Assembly (NCBI GenBank): GCA_018678395.1
Contig: JAHHMJ010000318.1
Coordinates: forward strand, 1 to 16,741
DNA length: 16,741 bases
Direction: 5' to 3'
DNA from: Gemmatimonadota bacterium
GTDB lineage: Bacteria > Gemmatimonadota > Gemmatimonadetes > Longimicrobiales > Gaopeijiaceae
How positions within the stretch are numbered: position 1 is the stretch's first letter; every line of letters starts with the position of its first letter. This document shows positions 12,030-16,741 of this stretch, in pieces. Both the position numbers and the translations under genes were made by a program. The notes under the pieces were generated by a model, which was not told the origin of the DNA, did not search any database, and saw nothing but the letters and a program-made list of their open reading frames with translations.

Positions 12030-13055
12030 TCAGGCGCCCGACGGCCCGGCCTCCGGGTCGCAGCCCGCCTCGTAGACGGCCGACCACGCTCCGTCGGCGT
12101 TCTCCAGTACGGCCGCCCAGCGGGACGACGCCCCCATGACCTCGAGCAGCACCTCGGAGCGTCCGTCACCGTCCCAGTCGAACTGCTGGAAGAAGCGCGG
12201 GGCACCCTTCCCGTCGTCGCCCACGCGGCGGTACCAGACGTAGTCGATCCCCCACCGGGCCTGGAGGCGGGGCGACCCCATCACGAACAGGCTGTAGGCG
12301 ACGGGGGTGCCCGGGTCCTCGACGGCGAGACGATCCCGGAACATGAAGGTCGACGCGATCGAGGGTTCGACGCCGGGGCCCGTCCGGGTCACGACGAGGT
12401 CGGCCCTGGCGTCGGTGAGATCGTCCGGCCACAGCGCCGACTGCTGCATGATGGCGGTCTGGGCCAGCAGGCGGCTCGCCTCGCGGTGGGAGTCGAGGGG
12501 AGGCGGAAACGCACCCTCAGCGTGCTGCGCCTCCGGCTCCGATCCGCGCGCGAGCGCCAGGAATCGAGTGGCTCCCGCAGCCGCCGGGATCAACTCCGGT
12601 ACTCCCACGGCGGCGGTCCGGGGGACGCACCAGCCCGCGACCGATGCCACGGTGTCGGCTACCAGGGTGCCGACCCGAACGCCGTCCGCGAAGAGCGTGA
12701 ACTCGGTCCCGGGCGCCATTCGGCGTCGGGCGAAGTACGCGTCGTACCCCGGTGCGTCCGTCTCGGTGGATAGCGGCAGGATGCTGTCGCCACGGAACTC
12801 GAAGAGGGGGTACAGAGACAGCGTGGCGCCCGCCCGCGTACCCGCATAGAGCACCGATCCCTCCGGTAGCGGAGGAGGCGGAACCTCGCTGTCGGCCGCG
12901 AGGGAGTCCTCGGGAACCTCGAGATCGGCGCCGACCGTTGCGGGTGGAGGCGGTTGGAGGACGATCGACGCCCCTCCCCATTCCACGTTGTCGCAGCCCG
13001 CGGTCAGGGCTAGAATCACGAGGGACGCGAATGAGCGATGTGCAAGTCCCGCCAC
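12030..13055 (-). CDS. Hypothetical lipoprotein with an Asp-rich calcium-loop (FG-GAP/VCBS-like) motif, first gene of importer operon
   Basis: A 341-residue exported protein I cannot assign to a named family. It starts at a GTG (13055) with a short basic region and hydrophobic stretch ending in LTAGC, a good lipobox (Cys21). A Pro-rich low-complexity linker (about 34-64) follows. The body is mostly beta-type sequence with a Cys near the middle (GWCVPRT) and one near the end (EAGCDP), perhaps a disulfide. Near the C-terminus, FDWDGDGRSEVLLEVMG matches the DxDxDG loop of FG-GAP/VCBS beta-propeller repeats, a calcium-binding element, but only one copy is visible. It ends one base before the BtuF-like gene, so the two are cotranscribed. 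It may be a cell-surface partner of the importer, but that is only inferred from position. Confidence 0.75.
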   Translation of the reverse strand: MAGLAHRSFASLVILALTAGCDNVEWGGASIVLQPPPPATVGADLEVPEDSLAADSEVPPPPLPEGSVLYAGTRAGATLSLYPLFEFRGDSILPLSTETDAPGYDAYFARRRMAPGTEFTLFADGVRVGTLVADTVASVAGWCVPRTAAVGVPELIPAAAGATRFLALARGSEPEAQHAEGAFPPPLDSHREASRLLAQTAIMQQSALWPDDLTDARADLVVTRTGPGVEPSIASTFMFRDRLAVEDPGTPVAYSLFVMGSPRLQARWGIDYVWYRRVGDDGKGAPRFFQQFDWDGDGRSEVLLEVMGASSRWAAVLENADGAWSAVYEAGCDPEAGPSGA

Positions 13056-13210: not shown

Positions 13211-13696
13211 ATGACCTCTTCCCCTCCGGACGCCCGCTTGTTCCGACACGTCATGGGGCACTTCGGAAGTGGCGTGACCGTGGTCACCGCTGAAAGCGCC
13301 CCGATCCCGGTGGGCTTCACGGCGAGCTCGGTGGCGTCGTTGTCGCTGGAGCCGACGCTCGTGATGGTCGGCGTGGGCACGGACGGGGAGTCGCTGTCCG
13401 CGATCAGGGCGGCGGGCGCATTCGCGGTGAACATTCTCGCCCGCGATCAGGAGGCGCTGGCGATGCGGTTCGCGTCCGACAGGCGCGAGACGCGGTTCCG
13501 CGACCTCGAACTCGGCGTCGGCGTGACCGGGGCGCCCGTACTTCCGGGAGTCCTCGGCTGGCTCGATTGCCGGGTTCACGACGAATTCCCCGCCGGCGAT
13601 CACGTCGTGATGGTCGGTCGCGTCGAGGCCTGCGACGCCCAGGAGGGTGAACCGCTGCTCTACTTCCGCGGTCGTTTCGGAGGCTGGGCCTCGTGA
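13211..13696 (+). CDS. Flavin reductase-like domain protein (FMN-binding split barrel)
   Basis: A 161-residue protein of the flavin reductase/HpaC-like family. FRHVMGHFGSGVTVVTAE (11-28), GFTASSVASLSLEPTLVMVGV (35-55), FAVNILARDQ (71-80), GDHVVMVGRVEA (129-140) and PLLYFRGRFGGW (148-159) are the family's FMN-binding and dimer-core segments. Members use NAD(P)H to reduce free flavin for a partner monooxygenase, or act as flavin-bound electron-transfer proteins. No monooxygenase is encoded nearby. I start at the ATG at 13211, where homology begins; the ribosome site is poor (GAGG only two bases away). Its stop overlaps the GTG of the membrane-protein gene (GTGA, 13693-13696). It heads a coupled operon with an SbcCD-like pair, an unusual setting for this family. 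Confidence 0.9.
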   Translation: MTSSPPDARLFRHVMGHFGSGVTVVTAESAPIPVGFTASSVASLSLEPTLVMVGVGTDGESLSAIRAAGAFAVNILARDQEALAMRFASDRRETRFRDLELGVGVTGAPVLPGVLGWLDCRVHDEFPAGDHVVMVGRVEACDAQEGEPLLYFRGRFGGWAS

Positions 13697-14358
13697 GGCG
13701 GATCCTACCTCCCTTCATCGCGGGGGCGGTCGCCGTCCTCACGGCGGAGCTGACCCTCTCGCTCCTCCTCTTCGCCCGCCCCGGGTTTCTTCGTGCGCTG
13801 ACCGCGATCCTGGCGATCCAGCTCGCCTCGCTGGCCGTCGGCTTCGGGGTCGGGCCTCGGCGCGACGCCCAGGGAGCCTGGACGGTCGCGGCGGCCGTGT
13901 CCCTGCGATGGCGGTGGCTGTTCGCCGTCGCGTCGCTTGCGGTCGCCGCGGCGGCGGCGGCGGGGTGGAGCCTGCTGGGCGGTCTGGGTGGTACGGCCTT
14001 GCAGCGAGGGGTCGCGGTAGCAGCGTTGGGTGCGCTTCCCCTCATGACGCTCGGAGCCGTCCTGGGTGGAGTGGCGCAGCGGACCCCCAGCGCGCGCGTT
14101 GCGGTCTGGGCGGCGCTGGGCGGGGCATTCGGGGCGGCCCTGTTGGGTGGCGTACTCCTGACCCGCGTTCTCCCGGTGTCGATGCTCGTGGGAAGCGCGC
14201 TGTTCGTGTCGTTCGCGGCCATCCTGGATGGGGGCATCGATCGCGCGGAGTTCGACGAAGGCGCGGCGGAGGACGACGCGATCCTGTCGATCGACGCCCT
14301 GGCTCCCGAGGGCATCATCGCGATCGAGCGACTGGCCCCGGACCCGGAACGGGTGTGA
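13693..14358 (+). CDS. Hypothetical membrane protein with about six transmembrane helices
   Basis: A 221-residue Ala/Gly/Leu-rich protein I do not recognise. Probable membrane spans are at about 5-27, 32-54, 73-97, 106-128, 134-156 and 160-177. A charged, mostly acidic tail follows (about 181-221, with DRAEFDEGAAEDDA), likely cytoplasmic if the N-terminus (MRRI) is inside. No transporter or enzyme motif is visible. The start is a GTG overlapping the flavin reductase stop by four bases, with GGAGG nine bases before it. Its own stop overlaps the GTG of the SbcD-like gene in the same way, so the four genes are translated as one unit. It could anchor the downstream complex at the membrane, but nothing in the sequence shows this directly. 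Confidence 0.82.
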   Translation: MRRILPPFIAGAVAVLTAELTLSLLLFARPGFLRALTAILAIQLASLAVGFGVGPRRDAQGAWTVAAAVSLRWRWLFAVASLAVAAAAAAGWSLLGGLGGTALQRGVAVAALGALPLMTLGAVLGGVAQRTPSARVAVWAALGGAFGAALLGGVLLTRVLPVSMLVGSALFVSFAAILDGGIDRAEFDEGAAEDDAILSIDALAPEGIIAIERLAPDPERV

Positions 14359-15527
14359 TTCTCGCGCATCTCTCCGACCTCCACCTCGGACACCGAGCGT
14401 TCGATCGTTGGGAGCGCGGGGTGAACGTGCGTGAGCGGGATGTGGCGCAGTCGGTCCAGCGGGCCTTCGATGCGGTCATCGAGCGCCGACCCGACCTCGT
14501 CATCATCACCGGCGACGTCTTCGACCGACCCGACCCATCACCGGGTGCGCTGGTCACGCTGACCCGCGGCCTGGAGGCGCTTCACTCCGCCCTTCCGGAT
14601 ACGCCGGTGGTGATGGTCGCCGGCGCTCGCGATACCCCGCGGCGGTCGGCGGATGCGGGGGCGCTCGCCGCCCTCGACGCCTTCCCGAACGTCGAGGCCG
14701 CGACCGTGATGCCCCGGAGCATCTCCTATGCCCGGCGCTCCTTGCACGTGCTGCTGATTCCGCACACGGCGGTGCTCCGTGGCCCGCAGCCCCTGCTCGA
14801 GCCGGATCCCCGCATGGAGCGGAACGTCCTCGTCACCTGCGGCCGGGTCGCGCACGGGGAGGGACCCGGCCTCCAGGTCGACCCCGCCGAGTGGGACTAC
14901 GTGGCTCTGGGGTCCGACCACACCCATCGGGTGGTGGGTCCTGGCGTCGCCTACGCCGGCTCGCTCGAGCGTGTCGGTTCAGCGCCGTGGCGCGAAGCGG
15001 GCGAGGAGAAGGGGTTCGTCACGGTCGAGCTTCCGGGAGCGGAGATCCGCTTCCACCCGCTTCCGGGCCGACCCGTCGTAGCCCTCGCACCCAGTCGCGC
15101 ACCGACCGGTGACCCGGAGCGCCTGCGGGCGCGTCTCGCCGAGGTGGTGCGGGAGATCCCGGGCGGGATCGATCGCAAGGTCGTGCGGGTGCAGTTGCGG
15201 GGGCCCTCGCCCTCCGATCTGGTGGCGCTGCAGGGTCTGCTTCCCGAGTTGACCGAAGCCGCCGTCCACCTTTCGGTCGGCGTCGAACGTACGCGGACGG
15301 AGCCCTGGACCAAGGTCGATCCCCTGGAGCGGGCGCGGGCGGCGTTGCCTCCCGATGCGCCTCCGGAGGCCGGCACGCTGCTCGAGCGTGTGCTGGGCGA
15401 CGAGGGACCTCGTGGCGGACGGAGCGTAGCCGGTGACGGTGACGGTGAGGGCGACGGCGACGGCCTCGGTGACGGCCTCGGTGGCACGGCGGGCCCCGGG
15501 GCCGAGGCGCCGGAGGAGGCTTCGTGA
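14355..15527 (+). CDS. SbcD/Mre11-like metallophosphoesterase with degenerate active site
   Basis: A 390-residue protein with the SbcD/Mre11 fold by sequence. Motif I (SDLHLGH, D8 and H10) and motif II (ITGDVFDRP, D54) are kept. Motif III, normally GNHD, reads GARD (90-93), so the metal-binding Asn and catalytic His are gone. The later LxHG histidine is Cys162 (VLVTCGRV), and the GHxH pair reads GSDH (186-189), keeping only H189. YVAL before it and YAGSLER after it align with SbcD without gaps. Nuclease activity is therefore doubtful. A C-terminal domain (about 235-355) is followed by a Gly/Asp-rich repeat tail. It starts at a GTG overlapping the membrane-protein stop (14355-14358) and ends overlapping the SbcC-like GTG. 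Family assignment is firm; loss of activity is inferred. Confidence 0.88.
   Translation: MILAHLSDLHLGHRAFDRWERGVNVRERDVAQSVQRAFDAVIERRPDLVIITGDVFDRPDPSPGALVTLTRGLEALHSALPDTPVVMVAGARDTPRRSADAGALAALDAFPNVEAATVMPRSISYARRSLHVLLIPHTAVLRGPQPLLEPDPRMERNVLVTCGRVAHGEGPGLQVDPAEWDYVALGSDHTHRVVGPGVAYAGSLERVGSAPWREAGEEKGFVTVELPGAEIRFHPLPGRPVVALAPSRAPTGDPERLRARLAEVVREIPGGIDRKVVRVQLRGPSPSDLVALQGLLPELTEAAVHLSVGVERTRTEPWTKVDPLERARAALPPDAPPEAGTLLERVLGDEGPRGGRSVAGDGDGEGDGDGLGDGLGGTAGPGAEAPEEAS
15432..15484 (+). repeat. Short tandem repeat encoding a Gly/Asp tail on the SbcD-like protein
   Basis: About 53 bases built from GGTGAC/GGCGAC hexamers and two GACGGCCTCGGT units. They encode AGDGDGEGDGDGLGDGLGG. The units keep the reading frame (multiples of three), so copy number could vary by slippage without breaking the protein. 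Confidence 0.75.
15514..15519 (+). promoter_or_regulatory. Ribosome binding site of the SbcC-like gene, inside the SbcD-like gene
   Basis: AGGAGG lies four bases before the GTG at 15524 and within the last codons of the SbcD-like gene. It supports real translation of the downstream frame. Confidence 0.65.
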
Positions 15528-16741
15528 GGCTGGTCAGCCTGCATGCGCCGGCAGCGCCCGGACTGGGCACCCTCGAGGCCGACTACCTTCCCGCCGGCTT
15601 CGTGGCCGTACTGGCTCCGGACAGCCGCGTGCGGAGGGCGTTGCACGCTGCGCTCTCGGGAGAGGCGGGCCCCGACGCCTCGATCGTGACCTCGCCCCGC
15701 GGGCCCGACCCCTCGCTCGCTCGTCTGCCCGACCGCCTCGCGGACCGCCTTCGGACCGGGCGGGGTCTCGCCGACCTCGATGCCGTGGTCGAGGCGGGCA
15801 CCCGGGCCCTGGCTTGGCTGGACGGGCTCGATCGCATCGAGGCCGCCCGTGGTCGTCTCGCGCGCCTCTCGGGTGCGAACCGGGACGGCGCGCCTCCGCC
15901 CGCCCTGGTCGCGCGCATGCACGAGCTGGAGTCCGCCCCGGCCGAGTGCGCGAGACTCGAGGAAGCGCTGCGGCGGCACCGGGAGGACGATGTCGAGGTG
16001 GCCGGTGATCTCGAGCAGGCCACGATGGAATGGCTCCGTGAGCGGCAGGACGCCGAGACGCGACTTCAGGCCTACCGCGACCGGGCGCGCGAACTCAAGG
16101 CGCGTCTACGTCAGATGGAGGAGGCCGCCGAGGCCACGCCCTGCCCGACCTGTGGGCGACCGCTGGCGGACCATTTCGACACCGTGCTCGAGACCTTTCG
16201 CGACGAGTGGGAGGGGGTCGTCCAGGACGGAAGCTGGTGGCGGCGGCGGCGAGAGCAGCTCGAGGGGAAGCCCCAGTCCCTCCAGGAGCTCGAGAGCCGC
16301 GCCCTGCAGCTGCATGCCGCCGCCCTGGAGCTGGCCGAACGGGTCCACGCCGCCCGCGCTCTCGTCGACGAGCTCGACGAACTCCGGGCTCGTGTCGGCC
16401 CCGAGCCTGCCACCGGGACGACGGCGCCGGGCGAATCGGTCGCGCGCACCGTGGACGATGCGCTCGCCGAGGCGGGCCGGGAGGTGGTGGCCGCAGCGCG
16501 CCATCGCCTGCTCGACCGCGCGGCGGCCTACCTGCTGCGCCTCTCCGCCGGTCGCCTGCTGGGGTTTCGGCTGACTTCGTCGGGCCGGACCGCCCTGGTT
16601 GGGCCCGAGGTCGACCTCTCGACGCCACCCGACGAGGATGGGGCCGCCGCGTTGCTCGCGGTCCGGCTCGCCGCGGTGGAGTGCGCCCACGAGGCCGTCG
16701 GCTCGCGCCACGCCGCACTCGTCGTCGGCAACCCCTTCGAT
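15524..16741 (+). CDS. SbcC/Rad50-like coiled-coil protein with zinc hook but no recognisable ATPase motifs (runs off right edge)
   Basis: 406 codons are present with no stop. The start is a GTG overlapping the SbcD-like stop (GTGA), with AGGAGG four bases before it. The N-terminus follows the SbcC pattern (MRLVSLHAPAAPGLGTLEAD, then LPAGFVAVL), but the P-loop position reads APDSRVRR (31-38), without Gly-Lys-Ser/Thr. Helical, charged segments (about 90-205 and 240-295) flank CPTCGRPL (207-214), a Rad50-type zinc hook. The C-terminal lobe (LLDRAAAYLLRLSAGRLLGF, about 329-348) is SbcC-like, but the signature position reads LSTPP (365-369) and the Walker B end reads VVGNPFD (400-406) where LDDPFD is usual. 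The arms are much shorter than in SbcC. It should still dimerise through zinc and bind the SbcD-like partner, but ATP use is unlikely. Confidence 0.82.
   Translation, partial: MRLVSLHAPAAPGLGTLEADYLPAGFVAVLAPDSRVRRALHAALSGEAGPDASIVTSPRGPDPSLARLPDRLADRLRTGRGLADLDAVVEAGTRALAWLDGLDRIEAARGRLARLSGANRDGAPPPALVARMHELESAPAECARLEEALRRHREDDVEVAGDLEQATMEWLRERQDAETRLQAYRDRARELKARLRQMEEAAEATPCPTCGRPLADHFDTVLETFRDEWEGVVQDGSWWRRRREQLEGKPQSLQELESRALQLHAAALELAERVHAARALVDELDELRARVGPEPATGTTAPGESVARTVDDALAEAGREVVAAARHRLLDRAAAYLLRLSAGRLLGFRLTSSGRTALVGPEVDLSTPPDEDGAAALLAVRLAAVECAHEAVGSRHAALVVGNPFD

Follow-up and report, generated by a model that had tools for sequence, protein, structure and literature searches.

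A catalytically degenerate SbcCD pair with a conserved zinc hook across a clade of Gemmatimonadota

What is left for a Mre11–Rad50 complex to do when the residues needed for nuclease and ATPase activity have gone? The question is raised by the window, a 16,741-base stretch of Gemmatimonadota DNA (GenBank contig JAHHMJ010000318.1; contig C452 of genome G000, which is 78% complete and in 705 contigs), at the end of which lie an SbcD-like (Mre11-like) and an SbcC-like (Rad50-like) gene, here called pseudo-SbcD and pseudo-SbcC. An earlier note, made from the sequence alone, had described them as adjacent, overlapping frames that had lost their catalytic motifs together, and had proposed that selection keeps them for a non-catalytic role. 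The coordinates and the 4-base GTGA overlap joining the two frames proved correct (Table 1), as did the ribosome-binding-like site of pseudo-SbcC: GGAGGAGG sits 4 bases ahead of its GTG start, and chance would be expected to produce this pattern, GTG included, 0.16 times over the window. Loss of the catalytic sites combined with purifying selection is well supported by the sequence comparisons presented here, which are best read as pointing to a non-catalytic role; that this role is that of a zinc-hook tether or scaffold derived from SbcCD we rate at slightly better than an even chance.

Within pseudo-SbcD, the family alignment identifies four substitutions in the active site, N91A, H92R, H162C and H187S, whereas the DLH and GDVFD motifs and the second His of GHxH are intact; likewise, relative to Methanocaldococcus Mre11, VAGNHE has become VAGARD and GHIH has become GSDH. 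Residues were paired by aligning the window protein to the Methanocaldococcus enzyme and a canonical relative to Pyrococcus Mre11, and the ligands carry the names that we take to apply from the Pyrococcus structures. Among the best 120 of 446 aligned SbcD-like homologs, none has Asn at the metal-2 position, and G53, D54 and the second His of GHxH are each present in all 120. A displaced GHxH within the sequence GSDHTH (as HTH) is ruled out, given that H189 alone is invariant, H191 being found in 44 of the 120. The score of pseudo-SbcD against TIGR00619, 52.7 bits, falls below the model cut-off of 77.65 bits, which served as our criterion for a true SbcD in the genome survey described below.

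In pseudo-SbcC, the GPNGxGKS, SGGE and LDE motifs of SbcC are replaced by APDSRVRR, TPPDEDG and VGN, respectively, and the CPTC zinc hook is intact, just as had been claimed; the counts for this protein refer to the best 120 of 195 homologs. The frame leaves the contig at residue 406, with its C-terminal end lying beyond. A stop or frameshift just past this point had been envisaged, but full-length relatives exist instead, among them a complete, 99% identical protein of 476 residues (P0121). The window protein gives no match to TIGR00618 up to an E value of 1; archaeal Rad50 models match it weakly, through the coiled coil, and no SbcC model matches, whereas Pfam Rad50_zn_hook reaches 13.5 bits, below its cut-off of 24.3, though the CxxC of the zinc hook is present. 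No motif was found at a shifted position: ten SGGE or LSGG strings occur in the pseudo frames (for example, FSGGEAVD near the C-terminus, and LSGGRIL), and they are not at the place of the signature. Two SbcC-like homologs without Walker A, P0195 and P0217, retain DE at the Walker B place, and may represent early-branching states.

The same substitutions recur across a clade. In a set of 203 SbcD rows (202 loci plus the window, many loci repeating one genome), the catalytic His is present in 63, and is replaced by Arg in 139 and by Ser in one; the rows with Arg or Ser are those that we term pseudo. Retaining rows of at least 240 residues that are <80% identical to any other retained row leaves 101 distinct rows, of which 60 are pseudo, and in 39 of these 60 the SbcD-like and SbcC-like parts are fused into a single frame, while the window pair occupies two. 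Among SbcC-like frames scoring 60 bits or more for the hook, all 39 that lie beside a His-type SbcD have Walker A, and none of the 137 beside a pseudo-SbcD does; there is, therefore, no mixed pair, with one partner intact and the other not, among the 176 placed frames, and Walker A is also lacking in six SbcC-like frames that have no SbcD row. As identical changes are common to a clade, the pattern goes beyond chance. Thus, the suggestion that both partners decayed together holds insofar as the sites were lost together, but what the family records is an older, shared conversion rather than decay: Arg has almost reached fixation where the catalytic His stood, one of the metal sites is retained, fusion is frequent, and no ortholog with intact motifs was found at this locus among the same-family loci examined. 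A recent decay or pseudogene is ruled out by this clade-wide state, together with the ratios of non-synonymous to synonymous substitution (dN/dS).

These ratios, calculated by NG86 for pairs with dS <1, lie well below 1, being 0.09–0.24 for the SbcD stretch (nine pairs; in fused loci the stretch includes some of SbcC as well) and 0.05–0.33 for the hook (10 pairs), and they bear out the proposal that the frames are under purifying selection. Its distribution along the proteins is uneven. Of 300 positions in pseudo-SbcD ranked by conservation, the metal-1 ligands occupy places 24, 25, 35 and 48, and Arg92 place 27, whereas the metal-2 positions rank 218, 173 and 149; hence, one metal site is constrained and the other is drifting. 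Indeed, all four metal-1 ligands are present in 57 of the 60 distinct pseudo rows. In pseudo-SbcC, the mean pairwise identity is 0.42 in the N-terminal head, 0.69 in the hook and 0.47 in the C-terminal head (n = 56, a mostly unfused subset of the 120 homologs that is closer to the window), compared with 0.69, 0.42 (matched 105-residue core) and 0.68 in canonical SbcC (n = 10); the order of conservation is reversed between the two, though overall divergence is not the same in the two sets. Some canonical SbcC (those of L093, L096, L177 and L189) already carry the hook core motif (W..RQDA, YRDR, VQDGxWW), which was, therefore, not invented after the sites were lost.

Structure prediction assigns the Mre11 fold to pseudo-SbcD. 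The model of P0121 has a predicted local distance difference test (pLDDT) value of 90.6, and Foldseek relates it to the head of structural maintenance of chromosomes (SMC) proteins (5.5e-10) and to Rad50 (1.9e-7); both the coiled coil and the head fold of SMC/Rad50 are thus predicted to be retained. The pair was modelled through a natural fusion as a single chain, with VIA-align covering mainly residues 1–315 of the fused model.

Where did the pair come from? Its loci share a common gene order, namely, a lipoprotein-like gene (cluster C2), flavin reductase (C6), a membrane protein (C4), SbcD, SbcC, C1 and C5, the last two of which we read as a large membrane protein and a TrpE-like enzyme, respectively. 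Of 11 canonical loci, L189 has the full order, L177 has C1 and C5, and between one and several of these genes are present at L091, L092, L093, L095, L096 and L109; none is present at L108 or L110, and L094 is too short to judge. In the tree, a single change separates pseudo and canonical rows, and support for the canonical branch is 99 (quick search). Because the gene order is shared with the canonical SbcCD of sister families, and given the tree, we regard the pair as an SbcCD ortholog that was changed about once: most likely, the clade's own SbcCD was converted in place close to the root of a single Gemmatimonadota family, and probably this happened once. Across the phylum, the hook core occurs in 313 of 395 sampled genomes, and a canonical SbcD query matches 125 of 150, with identities of 27–38% inside the window's family (f1) and 38–64% outside it, except for two weaker matches (G163 and G184); the loci examined outside f1 are canonical. 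The taxonomic labels place canonical L189 in the Longimicrobiaceae, and the pseudo loci in the Longimicrobiales, the Gemmatimonadales or only the phylum, with two odd labels. The latter, L154 (Gammaproteobacteria) and L114 (Gemmatimonas phototrophica), have a pseudo pair and f1-type neighbours, and are probably mislabelled. One genome, G013, has two pseudo-SbcD copies (contigs C183 and C209); the copy in L018, which lies close to a contig end, carries Ser in place of Arg92 and could be either a fragment or a paralog.

The zinc hook is the best-preserved element and the cutting and ATP sites are lost, a pattern suggestive of a remaining function in holding things together. At the sequence level, the two-metal nuclease site has been dismantled through loss of the metal-2 ligands and the catalytic His, leaving the metal-1 site. 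The ATPase sites are gone from a head whose SMC/Rad50 fold is predicted to persist, SbcC has been shortened, and in many members the two subunits have become one polypeptide; the coiled coil near the hook is the most constrained part. In the mechanism that we propose, a single metal bound at site 1 would serve a structural purpose. Without ATP cycling of the heads, the complex would presumably be locked in one shape, two copies of it would join via the zinc hook, and two partners would be held passively side by side; these would most likely be DNA ends or sister DNA, or possibly protein. DNA-end tethering by the pair is a plausible, if putative, function. The fuller statement, that family f1 has replaced the Mre11–Rad50 nuclease, at the same locus, by a dead, ATP-independent, single-metal tether dimerized by its zinc hook and fused in many lineages, we put at even odds. 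Several observations weigh against the tether reading. Support for the pseudo branch is just 73, with two long branches flagged; three of the 60 distinct rows (L023, L157 and L168) have lost metal-1 ligands too, and 34 still have a His at one metal-2 position; DE is retained at Walker B in two of the 120 SbcC-like homologs; the predicted template modelling score (pTM) for P0121 is only 0.62; the pair is absent from 18 of 82 f1 genomes and is, therefore, dispensable; and we know of no direct precedent for tethering without an ATP-driven step.

The remaining explanations differ in what they let the pair do. As a regulator or decoy, the dead copy would mix with, or compete against, an intact SbcCD or YhaNO of the same cell. 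The window's own genome does have an intact pair, which we take to be YhaO/YhaN (L106:5568-9505, contig C451), with GNHD, GHVH, the P-loop and LDE all in place. In the survey of f1 (82 draft genomes, namely, G000 and 81 others with a completeness of 90% or more; single absences are therefore unsure), the pseudo hook was detected in 64 genomes, YhaO in 57 (including G060, with a weak match) and an above-cut-off SbcD in 35, and the pair occurs in 51 of 57 genomes with YhaO compared with 13 of 25 without (Fisher p 0.0004). However, this positive link rests partly on genus g11, eight genomes of which lack both the pair and YhaO. Moreover, the pair accompanies a true SbcD in 22 of the 35 genomes that have one, and is found in 42 of the 47 that do not (13 have SbcD without the pair, and five neither), and 11 of the 64 pair-bearing genomes, three of them being the g24 genomes of the survey, have neither an SbcD over the cut-off nor YhaO detected (12 if G060 is discounted); the pair, therefore, seems able to do without an accompanying intact complex. 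With 42 of 64 pair-bearing genomes lacking an SbcD over the cut-off, regulation of a true SbcCD, as the earlier note had suggested, is not supported as a general role, and we consider the regulator or decoy unlikely. Mutual exclusion with true SbcCD is not claimed: Fisher p is 0.006 over the 82 genomes, but 0.48 when g11 is excluded. A new single-metal enzyme, in which the metal-1 site and the near-fixed Arg in place of the catalytic His would support some other phosphoester chemistry with no need for ATP, strikes us as no less improbable. The high ranks of the metal-1 ligands and Arg92 beside the low ranks of the metal-2 positions speak for it, but a structural metal accounts for the identical pattern, and the three loci that have lost metal-1 ligands nonetheless retain the hook core.

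Hidden catalysis, with ATPase and nuclease groups residing at other positions, is very unlikely in our estimation. The replaced P-loop is patterned (G-x-D-G-R-x-R-R), of 120 rows, 93 have Arg at the place of the Walker Lys, 16 have a gap and none has Lys, and there are the two homologs with DE at Walker B; but the new loop is unrecognizable in many fused clades, G..G.GK[ST] occurs in none of the 137 pseudo frames, and H191, the second His of GSDHTH, varies. Still less credible is slow decay, by which the genes would persist through inertia once their catalytic sites had gone. Absence of the pair from some f1 genomes would fit, as would a pseudo-SbcD-like stretch with two TGA codons (G080:C123:18130-19200), which has no hook match and lies in a genome with a canonical SbcD, and a frame change in G028; against these stand the low dN/dS, the long open frames maintained among sequences <80% identical, a hook core more conserved than that of canonical SbcC, and the nearly fixed Arg92, by which slow decay is already largely refuted. 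The G080 stretch may indicate that real decay occurs in places. In G028 (L025/L148), the SbcD part extends over two overlapping frames (259 and 712 residues), where two congeneric genomes have one frame of 879 residues; the split is either a sequencing error or a true frame change.

Among the known systems closest to the pair is the bacterial SbcCD (Mre11–Rad50), as found in sister families of the same order, to which the pair is alike in gene order, descent, both folds, gene adjacency and the zinc hook. It differs in lacking Walker A, the ATP-binding cassette (ABC) signature, the metal-2 site, the catalytic His and, in all but two of the 120 homologs, Walker B, in its frequent fusion, and in the length of SbcC: 476 residues in P0121 compared with 811–875 in nine of 11 canonical frames (stop to stop). 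YhaO/YhaN is alike as a metallophosphoesterase with an ABC/SMC-like partner, but has intact motifs (L106), another locus and, for its relatives, a tree branch of its own. The phosphoesterase fold serves as a scaffold without a catalytic site in Vps29 and in the B subunits of eukaryotic DNA polymerases; these, unlike pseudo-SbcD, are not known to be paired with a Rad50-like zinc-hook protein. Mimivirus R555 likewise combines Mre11-like and Rad50-like parts within one protein, but is reported to have Walker A, Walker B and most nuclease residues (PMC3175470), whereas both kinds of site are gone from the pseudo pair. A literature search found nothing on naturally dead or degenerate SbcCD in Gemmatimonadota, nor anything combining Gemmatimonadota with SbcCD, a weak absence in that subscription journals lay mostly outside its coverage.

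Upstream of the pair, the membrane-like gene overlaps the start of pseudo-SbcD by 4 bases and may encode an operon partner; its product has no Pfam or NCBIfam match, and the lipoprotein-like protein has no Pfam match. By direct comparison, the membrane protein, flavin reductase and lipoprotein-like gene of the window match clusters C4, C6 and C2, respectively, and its Pfam-matched neighbours include RsgA, sigma-70, HD, FecCD transport and flavin reductase. A defence system is disfavoured by such neighbours and by the weak, coil-type PADLOC matches to LmuB (for P0121, at best 23.4 bits over residues 134–284, coil only, in a library without a cut-off).

Table 1. Features of the window, with counts as defined in the text (x/60, distinct pseudo rows; x/120, listed homologs)
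Feature	Position	Strand	Evidence
Lipoprotein-like protein	12030..13055	-	Relatives adjoin the pair in 60 loci, and some canonical SbcCD
Syntenic membrane-like protein	13693..14358	+	C4 representative match E 5e-20; open reading frames in 56 relative loci
Pseudo-SbcD (Mre11-like), 390 residues, GTG start	14355..15527	+	Metallophos E 9.6e-7; TIGR00619 52.7 bits
Metal-1 ligands D8 and H10 (DLH), retained	14376..14384	+	Each in 59/60
Bridging ligand D54, retained	14514..14516	+	58/60
GARD: metal-2 ligand N91 to A and catalytic H92 to R, lost	14625..14630	+	N 0/60; R 120/120
Metal-2 ligand H162 to C, lost	14838..14840	+	H 34, R 13, Y 8, C 3, T 1, Q 1 of 60
Metal-2 ligand H187 to S (first His of GHxH), lost	14913..14915	+	G 37, S 15, Y 3, C 2, H 2, L 1 of 60
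Metal-1 ligand H189 (second His of GHxH), retained	14919..14921	+	57/60
Low-complexity GDG-rich tail of pseudo-SbcD, tandem repeat	15431..15483	+	
Ribosome-binding-like site GGAGGAGG of pseudo-SbcC	15512..15519	+	
Pseudo-SbcC (Rad50-like), 406 residues up to contig end	15524..16741	+	
Position of lost Walker A, now APDSRVRR	15614..15637	+	Walker A in 0/120
Hook core, most conserved stretch	15971..16288	+	Mean pairwise identity 0.69 vs 0.42-0.47 in head parts, 56 rows
Zinc hook CPTC	16142..16153	+	First Cys 120/120, second Cys 119/120
Position of lost ABC signature	16619..16642	+	SGGE/SGGQ there in 0/120
Position of lost Walker B and D-loop, AALVVGNPFD	16712..16741	+	DE there in 2/120

Some of these proteins are named as SbcCD nuclease or ATPase subunits in the sources, and the present results mark such annotations as errors. 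The compact, at times single-chain, form would be convenient for structural work. How far Mre11–Rad50 acts by scaffolding, as opposed to cutting, is a long-standing question that has been approached mostly via point mutants. If the non-catalytic reading is true, the pair would represent a natural separation of the structural from the enzymatic functions of the complex: evolution seems to have conducted this experiment across many genera, dropping the catalytic sites and leaving the hook region as the most constrained part.

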